64,000 nucleotides of DNA from a virus: IMG/VR virus record IMGVR_UViG_3300014838_000015, positions 1 to 64,000 of that record; one strand, given 5' to 3'. The position numbers were made by a program, and so were the translations under genes. The notes under the pieces were generated by a model. The model was not told the DNA's origin. It saw only the letters and a list, made by a program, of their open reading frames with translations, and did no database searches. The first letter of the stretch is position 1, and each line of letters begins with the position of its first letter. Positions 11,494 to 60,324 of this stretch are shown here, piece after piece.

Positions 11494-13386
11494 TTAAATC
11501 GTATTCATATCCAATATAGTAACAGTTCCGTAGAAGTCTGTGCGAACCATCTTTTTCCCGTACCTTGTCATTACGCCCTTCCTGGGTGTAAAATCTTCAG
11601 GAGCGAAGATCGTCGGAGTCACAATCAATGGAACGTACGGACTGTATACGTACCCAGTCTCGAGGTAGCTTCCGCCCTTGAATCCAACGAGGATTCTGTT
11701 CCGTGCAAAGTACGGATCCTTGTACACCGTGAAGCGGTTGCTTAGAGTACCAATGGCTTCCGCACCGATGGTGAACGGAGAACCGACCTGTCCTTCGCCG
11801 TCGAGCGAGAACTTCGGCTTGTAGAGCACCGAGGACTCGAGGATGGTTGCAACGTCCGGACCGGTGACCATGAAGTTCGCCGAACCACGTAGCGTCTTGC
11901 GGTGAATGGTGTTCGCAACGTCGATGATCGTCTCGATCAACGTTTCGTACCACTCGCGGACCGTACCGGTGAACTGCGGACCGATGCTCAACGAGGTGTT
12001 GAGGACGACCGGCACGCCGGTGAGCTTGTTGACGAACTTACCAGGAGCGCGGCTCCAGTACATGTTCGCACCGTTTGCCTGAGTGACCAGATCATTGAGA
12101 ATCTCTCGATCGATCTCAAGGGCAATCTGTTCAGAGAGGATGCTCGTGAGCTCGACCTCTGCGTCCATCGAGTGGTACGCATTGAGGTCCTGTGCCAGCT
12201 CGGGGCTCCACCGTGCACGCAGCTTTCGCGTTGTTGCAACGATGGCAATCGACTCGATCTTGATGTCGATCTCTGGGATCGCCGGTGTCGGATTGACGCT
12301 GAAGTCAGACTCGAAGGACGGAATCGTCAGCGTTGCACCATCGTCAGCCTGAACGGTGATGCCGTCGGCCGTAGCCATGGAGATGAATGCCTTACCAGCA
12401 TTAAAGGTCGGGGTCGTTGCTCCGGAGAGCTTGATGACAAGCTGAACCTGCGAACCGTTGAGCGGCGCCGCGGTGAAGTTGGAACTCGTCCAGTTACCGC
12501 GCTTGTTGAGGCGTCGGAGGTTAAGGAGACCCGTACCGGTTTGGTACGTTTGCGTCCATGCCTGCGAATTGTCTGTCGAGGAGAAGGTGAACAGTGCGAC
12601 CTGCTCGATTGCCATCAGATCACCGGTCGGGATCGCTGCCTGAATGTCAGAGGTATTGAGGTAAACGAAGGTGACACCGTAAACGCTGTTCGACTGCAGA
12701 TCAACGTCCAACTGCGGATCGAAGTTGCAAAGCTGACCGTTCACACCGGACATCGCCGTGACGATGCCGCCGGCAACGAACGTACCGTTAGTGTTGTTCC
12801 ATGCACCGATCTGAGCGTTGCTACCGGTGACAGATCCGGAGACCTGAACCTTGGTGTAACCAACGTTGACGAGATCGTACATACCACCGGTTGCGAGAGA
12901 CCCAGACTGAATTCCCTTGCCAGTCGGGTTATTGTAGATGGACTGCCCAGCGGTGTACGTCGACTGAGCGCTACCGTTCGGTCCGCTGAGCTGCAACCCG
13001 GACTGACCACCAACGTTGCTACCGTAGGTGTAATCGAGGTAGAAGATCAGTCCTGAAGGAAGGCTCATCGGCTGAATGCTTACGAGCTCGTTGGCAACGA
13101 GGCCACCGAACACTCGACGAACGATCGGGAACGCGATATTCGTGAAACCCTGAATCTGACCCGACGAAGCAACGTTTCCGCCACCGGTCGAGATGCTGTT
13201 GCCAGCCTCTTTGAGCACCTGAGCCGCCTGGTTCTCCAGGAGCTGAGCCATGGTCTCGCGCTTGACGCCATCGAGACCACGAAGCAGGCCGGTGCGGCTC
13301 CACTTCTCAACAAGCCGCGTGCGCTCTGCACCAACGTGCCTGTCTTTAATTCCAGCAGCGAGCTGGTCCATCGTAAAGTACTTCAT
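11494..13386 (-). CDS. 23: Major capsid protein, T4 gp23-like
   Basis: The start at 13386 (MKYFTMDQLAAGIKD) is preceded by GGAG; the frame is open further upstream but without a ribosome site. The 630-residue protein has gp23 hallmarks: LLENQAAQVLKEAG near residue 50-62, NIAFPIVRRVFGGLVANELVSIQPM, then KLRARWSPELAQDLNAYHSM and EQIALEIDREILNDL in the C-terminal half. gp23 is cleaved by the prohead protease after an LxE/IxE site; VLKE at residues 57-60 fits, giving a mature N-terminus at about residue 61 (T4: 65). A central Gly/Ser/Thr-rich insert with VSGSVTGS may be an extra surface domain. Scaffold lies upstream and a strong terminator downstream. Confidence 0.93.
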   Translation of the reverse strand: MKYFTMDQLAAGIKDRHVGAERTRLVEKWSRTGLLRGLDGVKRETMAQLLENQAAQVLKEAGNSISTGGGNVASSGQIQGFTNIAFPIVRRVFGGLVANELVSIQPMSLPSGLIFYLDYTYGSNVGGQSGLQLSGPNGSAQSTYTAGQSIYNNPTGKGIQSGSLATGGMYDLVNVGYTKVQVSGSVTGSNAQIGAWNNTNGTFVAGGIVTAMSGVNGQLCNFDPQLDVDLQSNSVYGVTFVYLNTSDIQAAIPTGDLMAIEQVALFTFSSTDNSQAWTQTYQTGTGLLNLRRLNKRGNWTSSNFTAAPLNGSQVQLVIKLSGATTPTFNAGKAFISMATADGITVQADDGATLTIPSFESDFSVNPTPAIPEIDIKIESIAIVATTRKLRARWSPELAQDLNAYHSMDAEVELTSILSEQIALEIDREILNDLVTQANGANMYWSRAPGKFVNKLTGVPVVLNTSLSIGPQFTGTVREWYETLIETIIDVANTIHRKTLRGSANFMVTGPDVATILESSVLYKPKFSLDGEGQVGSPFTIGAEAIGTLSNRFTVYKDPYFARNRILVGFKGGSYLETGYVYSPYVPLIVTPTIFAPEDFTPRKGVMTRYGKKMVRTDFYGTVTILDMNTI

Positions 13387-13445
13387 CTGCGTTTTTCTCC
13401 GTTTTGTAAAAGTTGATTGATTCGTTACCTGTTCACACAGCACCA

Positions 13446-15407
13446 TCACTTGACGATGCCAGCGAGCTGCGCCCATCGATCGGTCTCGACACCCTCGTTG
13501 AGGGTCTGCGTCGACGCCGGCTTATTGACCCTGCTCGAAGAACCGATGACCTGACGACGATCAACGCCTTCCTGCAGAGATTTCGAGGGACTCGCAATTG
13601 TCTTGACGAGGCTCTCGTAGACGAGCTTTGCTTCCCGCACCGTGTGGGCTTCGTCCAACTGCTTGATGACCTGCGATTTCTGCTTGGCCGTCAATTCAGA
13701 TTGTAGAAGCTTGTTGGTGTAGAGCAGCTTCGCGTTGAACAGATTCGATTCTGCCAACTTGGTGCGGAGCGTTCCGATGGCCTTGTTCTCCGCGGGCCGT
13801 GATGCAGCGCTATTCGAGCGCGACTCCTGAAGCTTTTTCGAGGCCTTGGCCGCGATGAGCGACATTTTCTTTCCGCGAGCGAGCGATTCATTGTATCGCT
13901 TAGCTAACGTATTGAACTCTTTCTTCGCTTCCGTGAAGCGTTTGGTATTGCCAGACGCCTTAGCGCGCGATGCTTCACGTTTGATGGCGACAGCACGCAC
14001 GGTGGCTCGCTCCTGAAGCTTCTTCTCGAAGTTCAACCTGCGAAGCGCCTCGTGACGTCGTTTATCCCACGTTGCGGTCTCGTGACCATCAGAAACGTCG
14101 GTACCATACTCATCCTGCTTGCGTCGATTCTGTAATTGATCGAGGTCTTCGCCACACGCTTCCTCGAGATCATCATCGTCGGACTCGTCAAGGTCCTGAT
14201 CGTCCTGTTCCTCAAGGTCCTGATCATCAGATTCACCCAACGGACGAGATGCAATTCCAGGCGATAGATCAGTGATTTCCTGATCGCGTGGATCTCCCTC
14301 TTCCTTGCCATCACCAAAGTCAGCAAGAATCTCAGAATCACCTGGACCATTGCCCCAAGAATCAGGCTTCGTTTCCTCACGAAGCGAACGCAAACGAGCG
14401 ATCTCTCGACGAAGCATTCCCTCATCAATTTCAACGATCGTATCGTCGCTCAATCTTCGTCCTTCCATCTGCTGATCCTCCTCATCGGCCATCTGATCAT
14501 CTCCATCGACGGCATAATCATCGAGACCTTCAGGCGCCTCTTCATCACCGCCTCCCATGTCCTCGAAACCCTCAGCACCTTCCTCATCCTCTTCACCGGT
14601 GATGAGATCGACACCGACATTCTCGAGATCGTCCTCAACATCATCAGGAAGCCCAGTCAGCTTCAGCGTGAGATCTGCTTCGGTCATCTTTTTCTTGGAC
14701 ATTGTCGTTGACTCCTGGAGTTTGTTGAGAACTTTGAAACTAGCTTCAAGCGCGTTCTCGTATGAGCTCTTCTTAGCAGGATCAGTTATCGACTCCTGCA
14801 CGTGGTCATACATATCTTCCACACGAGAAATCATTTGCGTAACATGCACACCGTACGCCGGTGTTTCCTTCACGATCTTGCTAGCCTTATTAAACAATGA
14901 AACGCTTTCGGTGATTTTTTCAATTGCACCACCAATATTGATAGGTTTATTGACCACTGATCTCAGCGCATCAACCGATTCAAGGCTTATCTCATACTCA
15001 TCGTCTGATTTCGGCATAGGTTCGCCGAACATCGGCGGAGGTACTGCAGGACCAGGTACGTTTCTAGGCATTCCATCAGCGGACGAATTACCAGCACACA
15101 TCGTATCGATGTCTAACGTTACCTTTCCTTCTGCGTCAGGTGAAGTCACGCATGCATCAGAACCATCCATTACAACCCCTGAGCCGTCATCAGTGAGCAT
15201 TTCACCGCCCATTTCGGTGGCTACAGGTGCAACAGAAACTCGATCCATCTCGTCACCTTCAGCGTCCTCCTGAAGAATTGCACGATCAATGAACTCACGA
15301 ATTCGCGGAGTGACAGCTTCAGTGAGAGCGCGCAGCGCATTTTCCTCAGCGACTTGCTTCACCCTCTTAACGTCAGCCAGCGCTTCCTCAAACAATTGCT
15401 TGGTCAT
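13446..15407 (-). CDS. 22: Prohead scaffold/core protein, gp22-like
   Basis: A 653-residue protein directly upstream of the capsid gene. Residues from about 230 to 420 are extremely acidic (runs of D and E such as SDDQDLEEQDDQDLDESDD). The next part is basic and helical. The C-terminus ends ETDRWAQLAGIVK, the type of ending seen in gp22-like cores of T4-type phages. Scaffolds assemble inside the prohead and are degraded by the prohead protease; several LxE and IxE sites are present. Much longer than T4 gp22 (269 aa), so it may be a fusion of core functions. Assignment rests on position, composition and the C-terminus. Confidence 0.75.
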   Translation of the reverse strand: MTKQLFEEALADVKRVKQVAEENALRALTEAVTPRIREFIDRAILQEDAEGDEMDRVSVAPVATEMGGEMLTDDGSGVVMDGSDACVTSPDAEGKVTLDIDTMCAGNSSADGMPRNVPGPAVPPPMFGEPMPKSDDEYEISLESVDALRSVVNKPINIGGAIEKITESVSLFNKASKIVKETPAYGVHVTQMISRVEDMYDHVQESITDPAKKSSYENALEASFKVLNKLQESTTMSKKKMTEADLTLKLTGLPDDVEDDLENVGVDLITGEEDEEGAEGFEDMGGGDEEAPEGLDDYAVDGDDQMADEEDQQMEGRRLSDDTIVEIDEGMLRREIARLRSLREETKPDSWGNGPGDSEILADFGDGKEEGDPRDQEITDLSPGIASRPLGESDDQDLEEQDDQDLDESDDDDLEEACGEDLDQLQNRRKQDEYGTDVSDGHETATWDKRRHEALRRLNFEKKLQERATVRAVAIKREASRAKASGNTKRFTEAKKEFNTLAKRYNESLARGKKMSLIAAKASKKLQESRSNSAASRPAENKAIGTLRTKLAESNLFNAKLLYTNKLLQSELTAKQKSQVIKQLDEAHTVREAKLVYESLVKTIASPSKSLQEGVDRRQVIGSSSRVNKPASTQTLNEGVETDRWAQLAGIVK

Positions 15408-17779: not shown

Positions 17780-17796
17780 TAAACACCACCTTCATT

Positions 17797-17802
17797 TAAG
17801 TA
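17797..17802 (-). promoter_or_regulatory. TACTTA box before gene 17387-17779
   Basis: TACTTA 17 nt upstream of ATG 17779, at the edge of the duplicated protease end. The matching position at 19060-19065 reads TACTCA, so only this junction keeps the box. Confidence 0.4.
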
Positions 17803-17851
17803 GGTCAACCCTATCGTTTGAACGACAGGATCTCGTTCAGAACGCGATCAA
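17799..17851 (-). repeat. 53-bp direct repeat, copied 3' end of protease gene
   Basis: Identical over 53 bases to 19062-19114, which is the real 3' end and stop region of the prohead protease gene. Here it encodes the last residues and stop of the inserted gene in a different frame. Confidence 0.9.
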
Positions 17852-19003
17852 TTCATCAGCTAACGTCTTTACTATATCGGGAAAGTCTTCTATCAAATCA
17901 GGATAATTTTGCAATTTATCCCATATTATTTTTTTAAAATAAATAGAAAAATCATATTGATCATATCGTGTCAATATCGTTTTAAATATTTCAACAGGAA
18001 GATTATCATTTAAAATAAGCGCACGATCAATTTCTTTATCATCACGTTCTAAAAGTTTAAACAAAACATCTTTTGGCGTGTTTGAATTACGTGCAAAATT
18101 GTTCAATGTTCTTTCTATTGCCGAAGATTTCTTCTTACTTTTATGAAGCGAATATTGTTCTTTCTCAAAAAATAAGAATTTATTATACATCTTTCTAAGA
18201 TCAACGGAAGACTCAGTAAAACCAATTGTATCTTCATTTTTTTCAATTTCAGATTGAAGTTTATTTTTAAACGCATCAACGTGTTCAATCGCTGAACGTG
18301 AAAAAAACACCGCCTGAGTGGGTTCGTTGGGATGAATCGTGCCGCTACCTTCGTCATCAACGCCATCTATTCCTATATCCCGAAACAATTTATTCCAATT
18401 TGTTGGGTTTTTTGACTTTAAACGAACACCGTTCCAAAACACCCTTGTAGGAGTACCAAGATACTTTTTTAAACGAGCTAAATTTACTTTGTCATCTACA
18501 TCTAGATAATCAGGCAAAGTACCATCTTCTATTTGACGTTTAACATTCATCATTTCTTTTTCAATTATTTCTCTTTTATGTTGTTCATAATCACATGGAG
18601 GCAAGTTTAACAGGTCATTTATTTTATTCAATAACTGCGTAGCATCAGTTTCTGTAACGTCATTTAATTTAAGAATTCGAGAAGGATTCCTCGGTTTTAT
18701 GACTTGAACATAATCTCTTTCGGTTGCAAAAAATTTTGCACGAGAACGTTTGTTAATAAGTTTTTTCAATATTTCATCTGTGATGGGATATGTATAAATT
18801 CCTAAAGGTGTTTTGAAATTACTTTGAGGATTTATTCCAACCTTATCTTCAGTCGTGAACGTCATATATCCAATTCCAACGTATTTTTTTAATTCATCGA
18901 TGAATTGCTGTTTCGTTCTAACAACAACGTCACCAACGCCTTCCTTATCTGAACGATTGCGTTCCTGTATCAATTGACGTAGTTCGCCCATCATTATAAA
19001 CAT
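17837..19003 (-). CDS. AT-rich inserted gene: targeting motif, ART-like region, LRV-like repeats
   Basis: The 388-residue protein begins MFIMMGELRQLIQE, the capsid-targeting-like motif. A region around 195-245 (WNKLFRDIGIDGVDDEGSG, IHPNEPTQAVFFSRSAI) recalls a domain of large polyvalent phage proteins that I associate, tentatively, with ADP-ribosyltransferase-type folds. The C-terminal part carries repeats of the type NSNTPKDVLFKLLERDD and NDNLPVEIFKTILTRYD, like leucine-rich variant repeats. The DNA is clearly AT-richer than its neighbours. Its stop and last residues come from a copied protease end, so the gene may have been truncated when it arrived. A packaged effector is a hypothesis. Confidence 0.75.
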   Translation of the reverse strand: MFIMMGELRQLIQERNRSDKEGVGDVVVRTKQQFIDELKKYVGIGYMTFTTEDKVGINPQSNFKTPLGIYTYPITDEILKKLINKRSRAKFFATERDYVQVIKPRNPSRILKLNDVTETDATQLLNKINDLLNLPPCDYEQHKREIIEKEMMNVKRQIEDGTLPDYLDVDDKVNLARLKKYLGTPTRVFWNGVRLKSKNPTNWNKLFRDIGIDGVDDEGSGTIHPNEPTQAVFFSRSAIEHVDAFKNKLQSEIEKNEDTIGFTESSVDLRKMYNKFLFFEKEQYSLHKSKKKSSAIERTLNNFARNSNTPKDVLFKLLERDDKEIDRALILNDNLPVEIFKTILTRYDQYDFSIYFKKIIWDKLQNYPDLIEDFPDIVKTLADELIAF

Positions 19004-19012
19004 GACTTTAAC

Positions 19013-19061
19013 TATTCATTGTTCATAGCGTCAACCAACTATAATCGCTTATCTCTCGTTG
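19013..19061 (-). repeat. 49-bp copy of terminase 3' end
   Basis: Matches 25892-25940 with a single difference (19044). In the terminase gene this encodes the last residues (QREISDYSWLTL, stop). Here it lies non-coding between the protease stop and the inserted gene start. Confidence 0.9.
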
Positions 19062-19114
19062 AGTAGGTCAACCCTATCGTTTGAACGACAGGATCTCGTT
19101 CAGAACGCGATCAA
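19062..19114 (-). repeat. 53-bp direct repeat, original protease 3' end
   Basis: Partner of 17799-17851. It spans the final codons and TAG of the prohead protease gene plus 12 bases of its downstream flank. Confidence 0.9.
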
Positions 19115-19730: not shown

Positions 19731-20583
19731 CTGAATCCTCCGTCACCAGCTCATCGTTGAGCTTGCTGTACAACATGAACCTCGTCACGGTGTCATCGTC
19801 AACGTCGACAAGCGTTTCGCTCTGAATCCTGTTCACCGCCTCATCGATCTTCGCTCGATCCAACGTCGAATCACCGGTACTGTCGTTGAGCCTCTTGAGA
19901 ATGTTCGACTTGATCTCGTGAAGTTTGGTGCTAAGCGCATCTGGATCATCGTTCGCCGTAGAAAATGCATATGCACGAAGCAAGCACTTCTGCTCATCGG
20001 ACAACGCATTTGCATATCGCTCGTTCAATCGCTTCATCATCAGCTTCATCAGCAACCGCGTCGAACCAGGTGCATCACCGGTGCCGACCTGCTCGTTGCC
20101 AGACTGCGTCCTCTCGGTGATCAGCCACTTGATCAACTGATCCTCATACGTTGCAATACGTCCCAGGTCTGATCCAGGAGTACGCCAATCATTTATCAAC
20201 GTCTGAATCGTCGCCAACATCCTGTACTCGTTCACCTGCCTGTCATAAAAATCGGCATCATTAAGCGATTTATTTATCGCGCTGATCAACAAAGATTTCT
20301 CGCTATCGAGCTGCGCTGTGTCGTGCGATCTGACGACCTGTTTGGCTTCCTGTAGAATGGACGCGGCAACGTGTTCGCTCGATACGCTTGTCCTGAACAG
20401 CGCGTTGACCAACCTAAACTCCTTGTAGAGCTCTGTTCCAGGCTTGAAGTACCTCTTTATAATACGTAGAGCTGCGTTCGAACGCTTCGTATCACCACGA
20501 ACGATGGCCTCAGACACGCTGAGAACGAGGAACTCGTGCAGCAAACCAACGGATCGCTTCTTGTTGTGCGACTTAGCCATCAT
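19720..20583 (-). CDS. Conserved head-module protein between portal and protease (287 aa)
   Basis: Start codon ATG at 20583 overlaps the portal stop and its end overlaps the protease start, so translation is coupled on both sides. It begins with a basic segment (MMAKSHNKKRSVGLLHEFLV), followed by NAALRIIKRYFKPGTELYKEF and a long all-helical body. From memory, similar proteins occupy the same place in other large T4-like phages, but no function is known to me. A portal-associated or core role is plausible. Confidence 0.75.
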   Translation of the reverse strand: MMAKSHNKKRSVGLLHEFLVLSVSEAIVRGDTKRSNAALRIIKRYFKPGTELYKEFRLVNALFRTSVSSEHVAASILQEAKQVVRSHDTAQLDSEKSLLISAINKSLNDADFYDRQVNEYRMLATIQTLINDWRTPGSDLGRIATYEDQLIKWLITERTQSGNEQVGTGDAPGSTRLLMKLMMKRLNERYANALSDEQKCLLRAYAFSTANDDPDALSTKLHEIKSNILKRLNDSTGDSTLDRAKIDEAVNRIQSETLVDVDDDTVTRFMLYSKLNDELVTEDSDVG

Positions 20584-23500
20584 TCATCCTCGCTATCATC
20601 ATCAAAATCAGCATCGCCATCGATCGTAAGTACACTCTCATTAATCAAAGGTTCGTCGGGTGCAGCTCCATTCGACCTTAAATCTTCATTGATCACAGCG
20701 TTCGACTTCGAATCGATCTCATCCTGAACGTCGGTTCCCTCGGAAATTAGAATCGCTCGTTGCTCGTCGGCGTGTTCGCTGAACGCCTTAGATTCCGTCA
20801 TCTTACGAAGCATGTACACCGTGTCGTTCGGTAACCGTCCACCCGCTATCTTCCTTGGCTTCTGAACGATGCGATCGACGCTCTCACCGAACGGGTTAGA
20901 AACCATCGAATTGATGAAGTTGTTGTCGTATGGATCACCCATCGCCTCATTGTCGTTGCTCGTCATCTTGTTGAGGTCTGGAGTCGCGGTCGAGTTCGAT
21001 CCGTGGTGACGACGCCTTCCGCGATTGTAGAGAGAACGTTGCAGCTGCGACTGTGCCTTGATGGGCGGACCAACGTCGCCGTAGAGATGCGGAAGCTTGA
21101 GCGAGAACGATTCATCGTCGTCGAGGTCATCGCTGCCGGTCAACAACTGAACGCCGGCGTTCGTCTCTTCCTCGGGTTCATCGCCAGCGTTTTCAGGCGC
21201 TGGTGTCGCTTCTTCGCCTGCACCCGATTCCTCACCACCGCCACCCGATTCCTCGCCACCGCCGCCACCGAACAATCCCTCGGCGCCGCCTTCTGTCCCA
21301 CCACCGCCGAAGCCACCGTCGCCGCCTTCGATGTCATCGTTGACCTGCTTCTCCTCGAGGCGTTCGGTGTCGAGAACCTTGATCTGCTCGTCGTTGAGCC
21401 CCCAGATCTCCTTGCGGATGAACTTCTTGCTGGCCATTCCCTCAGGAGCTGACCCGGCGATCTCGAACTTCGCTCGCCACAGCTCGAGCTTCTGTTGCTG
21501 AGCGACCGTTGACGGATTTGACAGGTGGAGCGTGAAGTTCTGAAGATCCTCGTTGTCGAAACCGTGAGCGTAGAGGTGAATGATCGCAAGTTTATTCAAT
21601 TCGGCGGTGATTGTCTTTTGAATAACGTTTGTCGTACGAGAAAATCTTATGTCTTCCTGAGCTAATGTCGCTTTCGAATTATGAACGAAAACAAATCCAT
21701 CAAGACTTAAGTCAGAAATTGCAAAATTGTGGTATTTTTCAACCTCAAGATCATAAACCGCAATTGGTTCATCAACGGTGATGATTTCAACAGATAGAAC
21801 CTTATGATTATTTTTCAACGTTTTCTTAAAATCTATAAATGTTGCATATCCATTCTCTTTAATAATACGTTTAACAACCGATCCACAAAATGGAACATTT
21901 CCTAATCGTTTCCAATCTGTCATTGACGTAACGTTGTTTTTAACACAAAACTCAGTCAATTGTTCAATTGTATACGTTAACCTTGGTCTAGTTCCACGTG
22001 GATACCCACCAAAGTGTTGTACCAACCATTGTGATATATTAATACCGTTTCTCGTTAGATTATTTCTAAAACAACTCCAACTAACATTAATATCCAAAAG
22101 TTTACACATGAAATCGTTACGATCGCTGCATTTTTTTGCTATTTCATGTAATTCATTAACAGATACATTTTTTTGCTTATACTTTGAATTATTATTTGAT
22201 ATTGCCTCTCGTCTGCTTCCATCATCATTATCCCAAGCGTATTTAACACCATTAACATGTGCTGTTAAATATTTTTCAGTTTTCATAACTTCACGTAACT
22301 TATCGCGAGAAGACTCAGATAACAAATTTGACAATGCACCCTTCGAATGAAGTAATGCATGAGCCTTCCTACCCATCTTCAACAAATTAATTGGTGAATT
22401 ATTTCGTTTGTTACAATCAACGTGGTGAACAACATAAGAACGTTCAAGCTTACGTGAAGGATCATCACTAACAAGACCTGCTTCACTCACCAAACGGTGT
22501 GTGTATTTCCATTCACAATTCTTATCAAGAACCATCTCGTAACCGTTAAGTTCATCATCTCCACCTTTCTTTTTCGTCGATGATGTTCTACGATAAAGTG
22601 GCATCAAGCTATCACAAATTTTAAGTTCATCAGCTCTCTTATATGAACCATCTCTCATCATGAATGGATGATTTTCTGTCACATCAAACGTAGTCCCATC
22701 ATCTAACATGATCCTGTGAAATTGTGTTACATCCTTTGTTTTCCATACTCTGTTAACTTTACCTGGTACAACATTTCCAGTTTCATTATCAATTGAGTAA
22801 ACCCAAACATCCTTACAATCAGATTTTGCTAATGTTTCAATCGTTTGCGTTGAACCATCCAATAAAGCAACGTTCGTATTGCCACGTAGACAACTCAACA
22901 TTTCATCGTAACCGAGGTATGCTCTTGGAATCTTCAACGCTGCAAATAATTTTTTCTGAATATAAGCGACGTCCTCAACGGCGGCCGTGTTTTGTCCACC
23001 CGCGAGCGTGTCGATCTTCGTGCCCGTTTCGCCACCACGAATGGGAATGAAGAAATCTTCCTCGACGGAGTTGTGCAACATTACGTAACCAAGCGATTCA
23101 TTGTTTGATTCATCAAACGATCCCGCGGCAAAGTTGTGCCAACGTTCAACGTTGATGCAACCGGTGTCCTCTCGAACGCGCAACCTCTCAACGCCATCGA
23201 CCTTCGACGATTTCTTGGCACACGACGGCATCAGGGGCTGGTCATGTTGCAGTTCGTCGGCTCGTTGGTACATACCATCGAGCAGCATGAAGCGGTGATC
23301 GGGTGTAACGTCGAGCGAAGAACCATCGTCGAGCGTCACTCTAACGAGCTCCGCGTTCCTACGAGTGATTCCGGCCCAGGTGACCTTGCCAGGAACGTAC
23401 TTCTTCGTCTCAGCGTCAAATGAATACACCCACTGATTGCGCTTACCCGCATTCCACTCGGAAATCAGATCACCGAGTCGCAGCGTCCCGGCGTCACGTA

Positions 23501-25295
23501 TCTTGATTCCGGTGTCGAGCGAGAGGCACATCGGATTGTAACGTAAATCGACCCTTCCGGTCGTCCTGTCCACGACTGGCGTCGTTCGCATCTGCTGACG
23601 TTGCTGTTCGATGTACGTATTGACCTCGCCAGGCGGCAGGTTCGCAACGTCGATGTAGAACACGCGACGCTCAGGAGCTCGAACGACGCGGTACACGAGC
23701 ATCGCGTCCTCGATGAGAATCAGCTGACGCCAAATCCGTCGAGCGGGTTCAATGATCGACGAACCATACGGCAAAAACATATCATTTCCTAGAAGCCTAA
23801 AGTGGGTGACCTCCCAGTTCTCAAGCGTTCTGTTGCCGAGCGTTACCCACCTGTAACGAACGGCGAAAGGATCGTCACGATCGTAGTTCTCCTCGCGTTC
23901 GATCTCATTGACTGGAATGGGAAACGCATTGATTACGCCGTATTCGGGAGACACGTCGTTGTAGAGGAAAAAATCGCCGTACTTACACAGGTTCCTAGCC
24001 CACGACCTGAGGTTAAACTCGACGTTGAGGACGTTGTAGAACAGATCCTCCAACAGTTCACGGACACGCTCGTTGTCGGAATAAACGTGAAGTATACGAC
24101 CCTTCTCGTCCTGAGCACACGTTTCATCAGCGTAGATGTCCATCGCCGCGGCGATCTCTGGCGTGTTGTGAGAAACAACGCTGTCGGTCGCAAAGTTCTT
24201 GTACCCGTCGACTGTCAGATCGTAGAGGGGTTGAATGCCCGCGCTTTTGACGCCGACGACCTTGCAATCATGGTACGAATCGACCCACCGTGAGAACCCA
24301 TCGAACCCTTGACCACGAAGACACTGCATCACAGCGTTGATCGACGTTCCAAGCTTCTTCGCTAGATCAACGCGACTCATTCCTTGTTCGTAAGCATCGC
24401 ACACTCGCTTGTACGTTAGTTCAACGCCTAGCACACCGTCGTTCTTCAGGTTGTAATCGTACGTTTTTGCAAAAACTTCGAAGTTCGCAAATCCAAACTC
24501 TGCAAGCCTGGCACGAATCAAGCTAAGGTTTGCACACAGTGCCTCGCTAACGATCGACTGATTGAATCCCAATTCATCACATGTCTGAAGTATCTTTGCA
24601 AACGTAACATCGTTTCGCTTCGGTTGATCGTTGTCCCGTTTCTTACCAGACACAAGCTCAGAGAACAACACGTGTTCAGGAACCCATGGTCGTTCCTTCT
24701 GCATCGTGTAAACACGCCGGTGTTCTTCGTATCCGCACTCGCTCTCACGGCAGAACGGCATCATTGCATCACCAACGACGAGGTCCTTGACCTTGCGATA
24801 CGATCCGTCTCTGAGCATCAAACGATGTTCGCCTGAGGCGGTTATTGACTTACCGCTGTCGAGTTTCACCTCGAACGTTTCGTCAACGCACGTTTGTCTA
24901 GCCTGCTTACCGATCGCAGGAACGATAGTTTGCGTAGCATGATCATATGAATAAACAATGAACGTATGATTTGGATCTTTGTCACATTCGCTTGATAACT
25001 CACCGATGGTTTTAAACCCACCAGGAACAGCAATTTGCGTCGACTCAATTAAACTGTACTCCATTTCCTGAAAATCTTGATATCTCATTAATCTCTCGGA
25101 GAGATTGTACGCATTACTCGTGATTGTCGCATACGTTGGCGATAATGATTTTTGAAACAGTAACGTTCCAGATGATTTCGTTTTATCTGCAACTGCGATC
25201 GTTGTATCGAGTGCTCTAATCTTCCTCTTAACGATCGGTCCTGACTTGAACAATCGTGATAATCGCCGAAATAGGCTCTTCGGTTCTTTTGCCAT
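20580..25295 (-). CDS. 20: Portal vertex protein (gp20-like) containing three inteins
   Basis: The 1571-residue precursor would splice to about 716 residues. Extein landmarks are RLMRYQDFQEMEY joined to TPEIAAAMDIYADET, the LVYRVVRAPERRVFYIDVA core, EEDFFIPIRGGETGTKIDTL and SKATLAQEDIRFSRT, all typical of gp20-like portals, which form the DNA entry ring and nucleate the prohead. After the conserved core comes an acidic, Gly-rich low-complexity tail of some 170 residues. ATG at 25295 is preferred over a TTG at 25340 because GGGA precedes it and portal homologues begin near there. Three in-frame interruptions are annotated separately as inteins. Without splicing the protein could not form a normal portal. 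Confidence 0.93.
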   Translation of the reverse strand: MAKEPKSLFRRLSRLFKSGPIVKRKIRALDTTIAVADKTKSSGTLLFQKSLSPTYATITSNAYNLSERLMRYQDFQEMEYSLIESTQIAVPGGFKTIGELSSECDKDPNHTFIVYSYDHATQTIVPAIGKQARQTCVDETFEVKLDSGKSITASGEHRLMLRDGSYRKVKDLVVGDAMMPFCRESECGYEEHRRVYTMQKERPWVPEHVLFSELVSGKKRDNDQPKRNDVTFAKILQTCDELGFNQSIVSEALCANLSLIRARLAEFGFANFEVFAKTYDYNLKNDGVLGVELTYKRVCDAYEQGMSRVDLAKKLGTSINAVMQCLRGQGFDGFSRWVDSYHDCKVVGVKSAGIQPLYDLTVDGYKNFATDSVVSHNTPEIAAAMDIYADETCAQDEKGRILHVYSDNERVRELLEDLFYNVLNVEFNLRSWARNLCKYGDFFLYNDVSPEYGVINAFPIPVNEIEREENYDRDDPFAVRYRWVTLGNRTLENWEVTHFRLLGNDMFLPYGSSIIEPARRIWRQLILIEDAMLVYRVVRAPERRVFYIDVANLPPGEVNTYIEQQRQQMRTTPVVDRTTGRVDLRYNPMCLSLDTGIKIRDAGTLRLGDLISEWNAGKRNQWVYSFDAETKKYVPGKVTWAGITRRNAELVRVTLDDGSSLDVTPDHRFMLLDGMYQRADELQHDQPLMPSCAKKSSKVDGVERLRVREDTGCINVERWHNFAAGSFDESNNESLGYVMLHNSVEEDFFIPIRGGETGTKIDTLAGGQNTAAVEDVAYIQKKLFAALKIPRAYLGYDEMLSCLRGNTNVALLDGSTQTIETLAKSDCKDVWVYSIDNETGNVVPGKVNRVWKTKDVTQFHRIMLDDGTTFDVTENHPFMMRDGSYKRADELKICDSLMPLYRRTSSTKKKGGDDELNGYEMVLDKNCEWKYTHRLVSEAGLVSDDPSRKLERSYVVHHVDCNKRNNSPINLLKMGRKAHALLHSKGALSNLLSESSRDKLREVMKTEKYLTAHVNGVKYAWDNDDGSRREAISNNNSKYKQKNVSVNELHEIAKKCSDRNDFMCKLLDINVSWSCFRNNLTRNGINISQWLVQHFGGYPRGTRPRLTYTIEQLTEFCVKNNVTSMTDWKRLGNVPFCGSVVKRIIKENGYATFIDFKKTLKNNHKVLSVEIITVDEPIAVYDLEVEKYHNFAISDLSLDGFVFVHNSKATLAQEDIRFSRTTNVIQKTITAELNKLAIIHLYAHGFDNEDLQNFTLHLSNPSTVAQQQKLELWRAKFEIAGSAPEGMASKKFIRKEIWGLNDEQIKVLDTERLEEKQVNDDIEGGDGGFGGGGTEGGAEGLFGGGGGEESGGGGEESGAGEEATPAPENAGDEPEEETNAGVQLLTGSDDLDDDESFSLKLPHLYGDVGPPIKAQSQLQRSLYNRGRRRHHGSNSTATPDLNKMTSNDNEAMGDPYDNNFINSMVSNPFGESVDRIVQKPRKIAGGRLPNDTVYMLRKMTESKAFSEHADEQRAILISEGTDVQDEIDSKSNAVINEDLRSNGAAPDEPLINESVLTIDGDADFDDDSEDE
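21678..22892 (-). mobile_element. Portal intein 3, full length with HNH endonuclease
   Basis: 405 residues from Cys (CLRGNTNVALLDGS) to the terminal VFVHN, followed by Ser as +1 residue. Block B-like FDVTENHPFMMRDGS and terminal blocks YDLEVEKYHNFAI and HN are present. The centre contains an HNH nuclease (VVHHVDCNKRNNSPINLL, then HALLH) plus helix-turn-helix-like repeats. The DNA is clearly AT-richer than the exteins, suggesting recent arrival. It sits in the conserved SKATLAQEDIRF site of the portal, so the extein after splicing reads DEMLS-SKATL. Confidence 0.9.
23070..23528 (-). mobile_element. Portal intein 2, mini-intein without endonuclease
   Basis: 153 residues from Cys (CLSLDTGIKIRDAG) to YVMLHN followed by Ser. 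Block B is seen as LDVTPDHRFMLLDG and the C-terminal block as VERWHNFAAGSF. There is no room for a homing nuclease, so the element can splice but should not home by itself. Composition matches the exteins, in keeping with long residence. Confidence 0.9.
24165..25055 (-). mobile_element. Portal intein 1, decayed endonuclease region
   Basis: 297 residues from Ser (SLIESTQIAVPGGFKTIGEL) to VVSHN followed by Thr. Block B is ITASGEHRLMLRDGS and the C-terminal block YDLTVDGYKNFATDS. The region between splicing halves aligns in layout with intein 3, but the HNH catalytic residues are missing; helix-turn-helix-like segments (SRVDLAKKLGTSINAVMQC) remain. It looks like an intermediate between the full intein 3 and the mini-intein 2. 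Confidence 0.9.
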
Positions 25296-25352
25296 CAGTT
25301 GATCCCATTCCTCATTCGGTGTAGAATTCCAAGCGTACAACGCAGCAAAGGC

Positions 25353-25891: not shown

Positions 25892-25940
25892 TATTCATTG
25901 TTCATAGCGTCAACCAACTATAGTCGCTTATCTCTCGTTG
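25892..25940 (-). repeat. 49-bp terminase 3' end, original copy
   Basis: Partner of 19013-19061. It covers the last codons and TGA of the terminase gene plus 10 downstream bases. Confidence 0.9.
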
Positions 25941-27542
25941 GTACGGGTTCCTCGGTGAGACCTGCGATGCATCCTGTGGTCTATAAACGCTGTGTGCATT
26001 CATTCCCCTGATGTTCGGATTGACCAACGGTTGAGCATCGTTTATTCCGCCTGGAAGCTTGTTGATGTCTCGACGATCGACCTTCGTTGCATTCAACAAC
26101 GCATACATCATCTCACGGTCCTGTTCAGAAACTCCTGAACTGCCATCGACTAACCAACAACCTATCGCGAGGCTCATGATAAGATCGTCGTAGCTATCCT
26201 TGCTCGCTTCTGGTTTGTTGCCGTTCCAGATGAACGCCTGGATCTGATCATAGAGTCGTCTCGAGTGTGAGTGCAGCTTCTTCGTGCGAATAAGGTCCTC
26301 GAACTTCGACAGAATCTGCGTCCTCGAACTCTTGTTCGTTGAGAATCCGGGTTGCTCGTCGGAGTTCAGTGGCATGTAGTTGAATGGATCACCCGCGTTG
26401 CTAGCGTAGTACAGGCACCTGTAGTTCAGGTCATCCCGCAATCGAACGTTCGTGAAGTAACCGAACGTGTTGTTCTCGGGTACGAGCAAAGCGTTGTTGT
26501 AGACCTTTCCCCAATCTGCCATCATGTCAGCGAGCTTCGACGGAGACACCTTTCCCATGTACTCCGCTGAAACGGAGCACTCATTCGCATCGATCACGTG
26601 GAATGCAGAGAAATCCCTTGCATCTCCGCGAGAGACGTCGGCGCTGATGACGTACCTGTGACCAGGCACAGATCGTTTCCAGATCCACACGTTTCGATCG
26701 TGACCCGTCTTCTCAATGGGTTCAAGTATTTGAGCGCGCAGCTCATCGATATCGTTTGGTTGAAGGAACGTATCACCCGATGATATGAAATCGCATAGGT
26801 ACTCTTGCGCAATTTTGCGGCGCGTTAGGCTCCTCGTTTCTTTATCATACCATGCTTGATCGTGCTCAGGATGAACGTTCCACAACAACCTTGTCGTGTG
26901 AAAATCGTTCTGTCCAGAAATTGCCTCCATCCATAACCTATAGTATTGACCGCCCACGCCATTCGGCGTTGATAGGATTATTGCCGATCCACCGGTTGAA
27001 ATCGTCGGTGCAAGGCCGGTCCATATATCCTCAAAATCACGTATAAAGGCACACTCATCAACGATTAATAAAGATAATCCTTCTGAACGACCTGCGTCGT
27101 CAGACGTTGGAATTGCAGTAACGCTGCTACCGTTTGTGAACGCTATCGATTGCTTCGTGGGCTCGAACTTCGTGAGCAGCAACCACGGTGGCAGGTTCTC
27201 AAGCATGACCTTGATCTTCTTGATGAAGTTTATCGCCGTCGGTAGCTTCGTCGCTATGACGAGAACGTTCTTGTCCTTATGAAAAATCGTGAACCACAAC
27301 GAATATGCAGCGCTGATCGTCGATAGACCTAGCTGTCTAGATTTCAGAACGATGTTGAGCCTGTGCTCGACGAAATCATGAATGCACTGATCCTGAAAAG
27401 GATACGTTTCGAATGGAATCATCCCACGCTTAGGATGTTGTATTCTACAATAGTTCTTTATGAAGTAGATCGGATCCTTGCCACACTTTAGGATCTCATT
27501 GACCTGATAATTCTTGTTTTGAGACAGTACGTTTATTGCCAT
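25902..27542 (-). CDS. 17: Terminase large subunit, T4 gp17-like
   Basis: The 546-residue packaging motor has an ATPase half with Walker A SRQLGLST (68-75) and Walker B LLIVDECAF (158-166). The nuclease half has the acidic residue D302 in ISADVSRGDARDF and a second acidic pair in DSYDDLIMSL near 452. ATP hydrolysis drives DNA into the prohead through the portal; the nuclease cuts concatemers. Its ATG overlaps the last base of the gene upstream (27542-27925). Length and motif order match gp17-type terminases, apart from a shorter N-terminus than T4. Its final codons are copied at 19.0 kb. Confidence 0.95.
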   Translation of the reverse strand: MAINVLSQNKNYQVNEILKCGKDPIYFIKNYCRIQHPKRGMIPFETYPFQDQCIHDFVEHRLNIVLKSRQLGLSTISAAYSLWFTIFHKDKNVLVIATKLPTAINFIKKIKVMLENLPPWLLLTKFEPTKQSIAFTNGSSVTAIPTSDDAGRSEGLSLLIVDECAFIRDFEDIWTGLAPTISTGGSAIILSTPNGVGGQYYRLWMEAISGQNDFHTTRLLWNVHPEHDQAWYDKETRSLTRRKIAQEYLCDFISSGDTFLQPNDIDELRAQILEPIEKTGHDRNVWIWKRSVPGHRYVISADVSRGDARDFSAFHVIDANECSVSAEYMGKVSPSKLADMMADWGKVYNNALLVPENNTFGYFTNVRLRDDLNYRCLYYASNAGDPFNYMPLNSDEQPGFSTNKSSRTQILSKFEDLIRTKKLHSHSRRLYDQIQAFIWNGNKPEASKDSYDDLIMSLAIGCWLVDGSSGVSEQDREMMYALLNATKVDRRDINKLPGGINDAQPLVNPNIRGMNAHSVYRPQDASQVSPRNPYQREISDYSWLTL

Positions 27543-60048: not shown

Positions 60049-60198
60049 TCGCTGTACGCCGTTCGCTGTAAATGAAAATTTAAATTTTCATTTACAGCTG
60101 ATAGCTGTTGCCGTTTAATCATTACTACTAAATTTAAGCTATCAGCTTAAAGCTTAAATTTAAGTTAAATTTAACAGTACAGCTTAACAGCGTAGCAT
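60049..60198. repeat. 150-bp tandem repeat unit 1
   Basis: Starts TCGCTGTACGCCGTTCGCTG, contains the 34-bp palindrome at 60065-60098 (half-site GCTGTAAATGAAAATTT) and TTAATCATTACTACTAAA at 60115. The second unit begins exactly 150 bases later. Confidence 0.85.
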
Positions 60199-60324
60199 TC
60201 GCTGTACGCCGTTCGCTGTAAATGAAAATTTAAATTTTCATTTACAGCTGTTAGCTGTCTCTGTTAATCATTACTACTAAATTTAAGCTTAAACTGATAG
60301 CTTAAATTTAGTAGTAATGATTAA
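60199..60324. repeat. Tandem repeat unit 2 with 26-bp stem inverted repeat
   Basis: First 52 bases are identical to unit 1, including the 34-bp palindrome (60215-60248). Its TTAATCATTACTACTAAA block at 60264 is mirrored at 60299-60324, making a 26-bp perfect stem with a 9-base loop. Confidence 0.85.

Follow-up and report, generated by a model that had tools for sequence, protein, structure and literature searches.

Inteins within phage portal genes are already known from the cluster C1 mycobacteriophages (PORT inteins). These belong to a different kind of phage and, in the accessible part of that report, are presented as one group with no mention of a portal with three inteins (PMC5050341). 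Genes with several inteins, in which full-length and mini-inteins stand side by side, have been described for mcm of the haloarchaea and Thermococcus and for dnaB of Mycobacterium smegmatis (PMC10643990). The TerL gene of a crAss-like phage contains two inteins (PMC7886860). In this report, we describe the portal gene of a T4-like environmental phage, with three inteins, from the window, which is the whole stretch of 64,000 nucleotides of viral DNA that was analysed. As in mcm and dnaB, a single gene has several sites that hold full-length and mini-inteins, but those are cellular replication genes, whereas here three sites are filled in a phage structural gene; the haloarchaeal intein endonucleases are of the LAGLIDADG type and that of the window portal is of the HNH type (PMC10643990). 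The crAss-like TerL is also a phage packaging gene that carries multiple inteins, but it differs in the number of inteins, the gene, and the phages (PMC7886860).

The original prediction considered portal genes with three inteins to be unknown, and this did not hold. The unannotated huge-phage record LR756508 contains a T4-like portal (35-49% identical, approximately) with three inteins, the third of which has an HNH nuclease and lies two residues from site 3 of the window portal; its other two sites differ from those of the window. Among the relatives collected here (designated L with a number), the portal of L086 has at least four inteins and those of L115, L122, L126, and L226 have three splicing domains each, although some of these reading frames end at contig edges; others have two or three. 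A T4-like portal with three inteins was not found in the open-licence literature, represented mostly by titles and abstracts. Portal inteins, and genes that mix full-length with mini-inteins, were thus already known; the setting in the window is unusually clear.

Three Inteins in the Portal Gene

The open reading frame of the portal gene encodes 1586 amino acids when counted from a TTG codon and 1571 when counted from the ATG at 25295, which is the likely start codon because the relatives begin at the same MAK. In profile searches, the extein matched the Portal_T4 family. The gene for the large terminase subunit (Terminase_6N) is located upstream at 25902-27542, and the Gp23 major capsid protein is encoded downstream at 11494-13476. 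The features of the gene are presented in Table 1.

Table 1. Portal gene, exteins, inteins, and intein subregions in the window
Feature	Position	Strand	Properties
Portal (gp20-like) gene, whole ORF	20580..25340	(-)	PF07230, E = 2e-60; relatives begin at same MAK
Extein 1	25056..25340	(-)	AT-rich, GC3 0.43
Intein 1 (I1)	24165..25055	(-)	297 aa, residues 96-392, Ser1...HN/T; PF14890 47.6 bits
HTH-like repeats remaining in I1	24270..24605	(-)	weak PHROG HTH matches, E = 0.0025; conserved in same-site relatives
Extein 2	23529..24164	(-)	at most 96% identity to relatives
Intein 2 (I2), mini-intein	23070..23528	(-)	153 aa, residues 605-757, Cys1...HN/S; PF14890 41.8 bits
Extein 3	22893..23069	(-)	final 26 codons (22893-22970) within GC3 trough
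Intein 3 (I3)	21678..22892	(-)	405 aa, residues 817-1221, Cys1...HN/S; PF14890 66.2 bits; AT-rich, GC3 0.25
HNH nuclease region of I3	22347..22514	(-)	H156, H157, N165, N169, H178, H182
Probable DNA-binding repeats of I3	21819..22175	(-)	assigned by resemblance to I1 and L086
Extein 4	20580..21677	(-)	initial 34 codons (21576-21677) within GC3 trough

The three in-frame inteins that had been predicted between 21678 and 25055 were recovered with that exact span and with every boundary correct to the residue. Each of them exceeds the curated cut-off of 35.8 bits for Intein_splicing (PF14890) when searched singly, with E values of 2e-12, 1e-10, and 4e-18 for I1, I2, and I3, respectively, and TIGR01445 has three matches. 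A search of the whole 101,225-base viral record found no inteins beyond these three. All three have the residues of a class 1 intein, which are Cys or Ser at position 1, T/SxxH in block B (SxxH in I1), a penultimate His, and a final Asn followed by Ser or Thr, and the predicted Cys/Ser starts and HN ends were seen in each. Block F of I2 contains Cys in place of the usual Asp.

Removal of the three inserts restores a conserved portal that is gapless across all three junctions, with the joints EMEY-TPEI (site 1), YNPM-SVEE (site 2), and EMLS-SKAT (site 3). The joined exteins amount to 716 residues from the ATG at 25295 and a computed mass of 80.3 kDa, slightly larger than the originally estimated 79 kDa; the computed mass of the unspliced precursor is 177 kDa. 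Over residues 13-482, the joined exteins share 90-92% identity with intein-free portals from viral contigs, which are ungapped at every junction. A second sample of relatives (n = 80) was collected with extein 2 alone, to avoid favouring intein-free genes. In this sample the occupied fraction is 24/79 for site 1, 3/80 for site 2, and 4/79 for site 3, the gap at the empty sites is exactly 0 residues in every case, and all three sites are filled together in none of the 80. The inteins of sites 2 and 3 tend to occur together (2/3 vs 2/76, Fisher p = 0.006; L240, L269, L279, L086, and the window), from either co-homing or shared descent.

A second IMG/VR contig contains the same three-intein allele with 99.97% nucleotide identity (4 mismatches in 13.2 kb), and thus an assembly error does not account for the arrangement. 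Group I introns were rejected as the source of the inserts, with zero Rfam matches at E values up to 1. The AlphaFold models of I1 and I2, with mean pLDDT values of 57 and 65, respectively, were too poor for use.

State of the Endonuclease in Each Intein

The original prediction assigned an HNH nuclease to I3, only HTH-like parts to I1, and a mini-intein to I2, and all three assignments are borne out by comparison with inteins at the same sites. I3 is 52% identical to the same-site intein of L277 and 45% identical to that of L086. Its six HNH residues are intact and are invariant in the site-3 relatives. The best match to the PHROG HNH families has an E value of 4e-9, and that to the Pfam family HNH_3 (5e-5) is slightly below the Pfam cut-off. 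Judging from these residues, the HNH nuclease of I3 probably still supports homing. A Streptococcus phage match that spans I3 was rejected as a portal; it is a DNA polymerase intein.

I1 is 54% identical to the intein found at the same site in L075. It corresponds to a same-site intein of 439 residues from which the 62-residue HNH core and one optional repeat have been subtracted. The 62-residue block, with the HNH core VHHxNF..DNRxENL..M, is present in four of four aligned site-1 relatives and absent from I1, where the deletion point falls after residue 139, near 24639. The additional repeat of about 65 residues is found in two of these relatives and is missing from the other two and from I1. 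I1 has retained its splicing blocks and HTH-like repeats. Environmental T4-like portals (L075, L082-L084, and L154-L230) have inteins at the same site and of the same lineage as I1, and nearly all of these inteins keep the HNH that I1 lacks; their first residue is mostly Cys, with Ser in I1 and L075. Lengths of 367-449 residues were determined for 63 of the 65 site-1 inteins surveyed, and the HNH block is missing only from those of the window (297 residues) and L166 (293 residues), which have different deletion edges.

I2 is 63% identical to the 396-residue site-2 intein of L279, which contains an HNH nuclease. Relative to this intein, I2 is without approximately 235 internal residues (about 12 + 223), with the main deletion point near 23175, and both splicing halves are kept. 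Neither the HNH nor the HTH-like parts are found in I2, and its sequence matches the solved DnaE mini-inteins across nearly the full length. The comparison suggests that the whole endonuclease and DNA-binding region was lost from I2, for which fewer same-site relatives are known than for I1.

An alternative is that I1 and I2 are ancestral mini-inteins in which an endonuclease was never present. Mini-inteins do exist elsewhere, and absence of the nuclease by itself gives no direction. However, the same-site relatives have the HNH at the exact position of the gap, and 63 of the 65 site-1 inteins have the length of HNH-bearing forms, so this alternative is quite unlikely. It is thus strongly favoured that I1 is a decayed form that would have lost its HNH by internal deletion.

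Intein Lineages, Base Composition, and Alternative Explanations

In a maximum-likelihood tree of the N-terminal splicing region, I1 groups with the site-1 intein of L075 (95/92), I2 with the site-2 intein of L086 (99/89), and I3 with the site-3 intein of L086 (99/98); I1 is in a separate clade from I2 and I3. Because each is paired with an intein from the same site in this supported tree, we infer that the portal gene was invaded three separate times by different intein lineages. Had a single intein entered and then been copied to the remaining two sites, a common Hint fold family and the fairly close positions of I2 and I3 in the tree would be accounted for, but the supported grouping of each with a same-site intein of another phage, and the different clade of I1, make such copying very improbable. 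The end branches of I1 and I2 are several-fold longer than those of their HNH-bearing sisters and that of I3 is not, which hints, from only three cases, that inteins change faster once the nuclease has been lost.

The GC3 values of I1, I2, and extein 2 are 0.53, 0.64, and 0.66, respectively. I3 is flanked by a GC3 trough at codons 341-400 of the joined gene (0.40 vs 0.69; scan p = 0.0008) that is deeper than in any compared relative. These AT-rich flanks suggest co-conversion, in which flanking DNA from the donor was brought in by homing. L086 ranked first of 81 as donor-like over codons 341-366 in an initial comparison. With more carriers in a non-redundant set, the site-3 carriers were not significantly closer to the window at the I3 flanks (p = 0.10), and L086 was dropped as the donor. 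The GC3 values fit with I3 as the youngest and I2 as the oldest of the three, but donors of different GC content would yield the same ranking.

Other patches and repeats were observed in the window. A second AT-rich patch (24920-25340) covers extein 1 and the initial 45 codons of I1 in an otherwise GC3-rich gene. It ends inside I1, where GC3 changes from 0.29 to 0.57, and this end is possibly a recombination breakpoint within an intein. At 17796-19114, two 56-bp direct repeats (98% identical) flank an AT-rich orphan reading frame (17837-19003, 388 aa, GC3 0.24) that has no match in Pfam and PHROG searches and seems to be an inserted gene. The 49 bp at 19013-19061 are repeated at 25892-25940, and the 67-bp repeats at 60049-60115 and 60199-60265 (94% identical) each contain a long palindrome.

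The in-frame insertion, the precisely empty sites, the splice motifs, and the HNH that is present in same-site relatives and absent from I1 and I2 are directly observed. They bear on the possibility that the mature portal retains the inserts as ordinary additional domains (Hedgehog/Hint-like or lineage-specific). Some weaker matches to the Hint and PT-HINT families would agree with this. However, most relatives are precisely without the segments, including those with 90-92% identity that are without all three with zero-residue gaps, and the HN/S or HN/T ends and the profile matches are specific to inteins; retained domains are barely conceivable. It is also very unlikely that splicing has been lost and that the portal gene is inactive, as the long end branches of I1 and I2 might be read. 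The portal is essential in T4-like phages, the open frame extends over 1586 codons, and the splice residues have been preserved.

We therefore regard it as very likely that this portal gene was invaded separately by three inteins, which are in different states of decay and are all expected to splice. Inteins of different lineages would have entered at three conserved sites on three separate occasions, with I3 probably the last to arrive, from an AT-rich source and with an HNH homing endonuclease that is apparently intact. I1 would have had its HNH core removed by internal deletion with its HTH-like repeats kept, and the endonuclease and DNA-binding region of I2 would be entirely gone; both would persist solely by inheritance or by carriage alongside a neighbour. 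All three would be translated inside the 177-kDa precursor, and each, from its class 1 residues, is expected to excise itself and leave the exteins joined as the 80.3-kDa portal. This splicing, like the homing of I3 and the order of arrival, is what we infer from the motifs and the established chemistry of inteins.

T4-like Portals as Hosts of Inteins

About a dozen intein insertion sites in all were found in the portals of the surveyed collections. In L077 and L078 another site (QDF/CEMEY) precedes site 1 by five residues, with an intein of 237 residues in L078 against 346 residues in L077 and the HNH-like block kept. In the N-terminal portion of the L226 portal (reading frame from 3997), two inteins are separated by only about six residues. 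The inteins of L086 and L155 (site 154) and of L221 and L269 (site 307) have a Pro start, a Cys in block F (VYCM), and an SN or KN end, and from these residues they may be class-3-like. The gene immediately upstream of the LR756508 portal (L002, 877-2658) contains another intein, LAGLIDADG-like by eye.

We lean toward the reading that the T4-like portal of environmental phages is a general sink for inteins, with about a dozen sites that unrelated lineages have invaded repeatedly and with repeated, independent loss of the endonuclease. The proposal that the window portal displays the life cycle of an intein stands for the three decay states, each of which has an HNH-bearing relative at the same site, but these states belong to separate lineages and are not one element followed through time. 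With site 1 filled in 24/79 near relatives, there is a warning that metagenomic gp20-like portal sequences are often interrupted by inteins, and the wider pattern of portal inteins may merit a separate study. The homing cycle (invasion, fixation, loss of the nuclease, and shrinkage or disappearance) is usually assembled from scattered genes, and several of its stages are found here in one gene. At its three sites, near relatives have alleles that are empty, full-length, or HNH-less, so that the rates and order of loss, and the effects between neighbouring inteins, are open to measurement. If the portal is such a sink, this gene family would be a natural record of the entire cycle.
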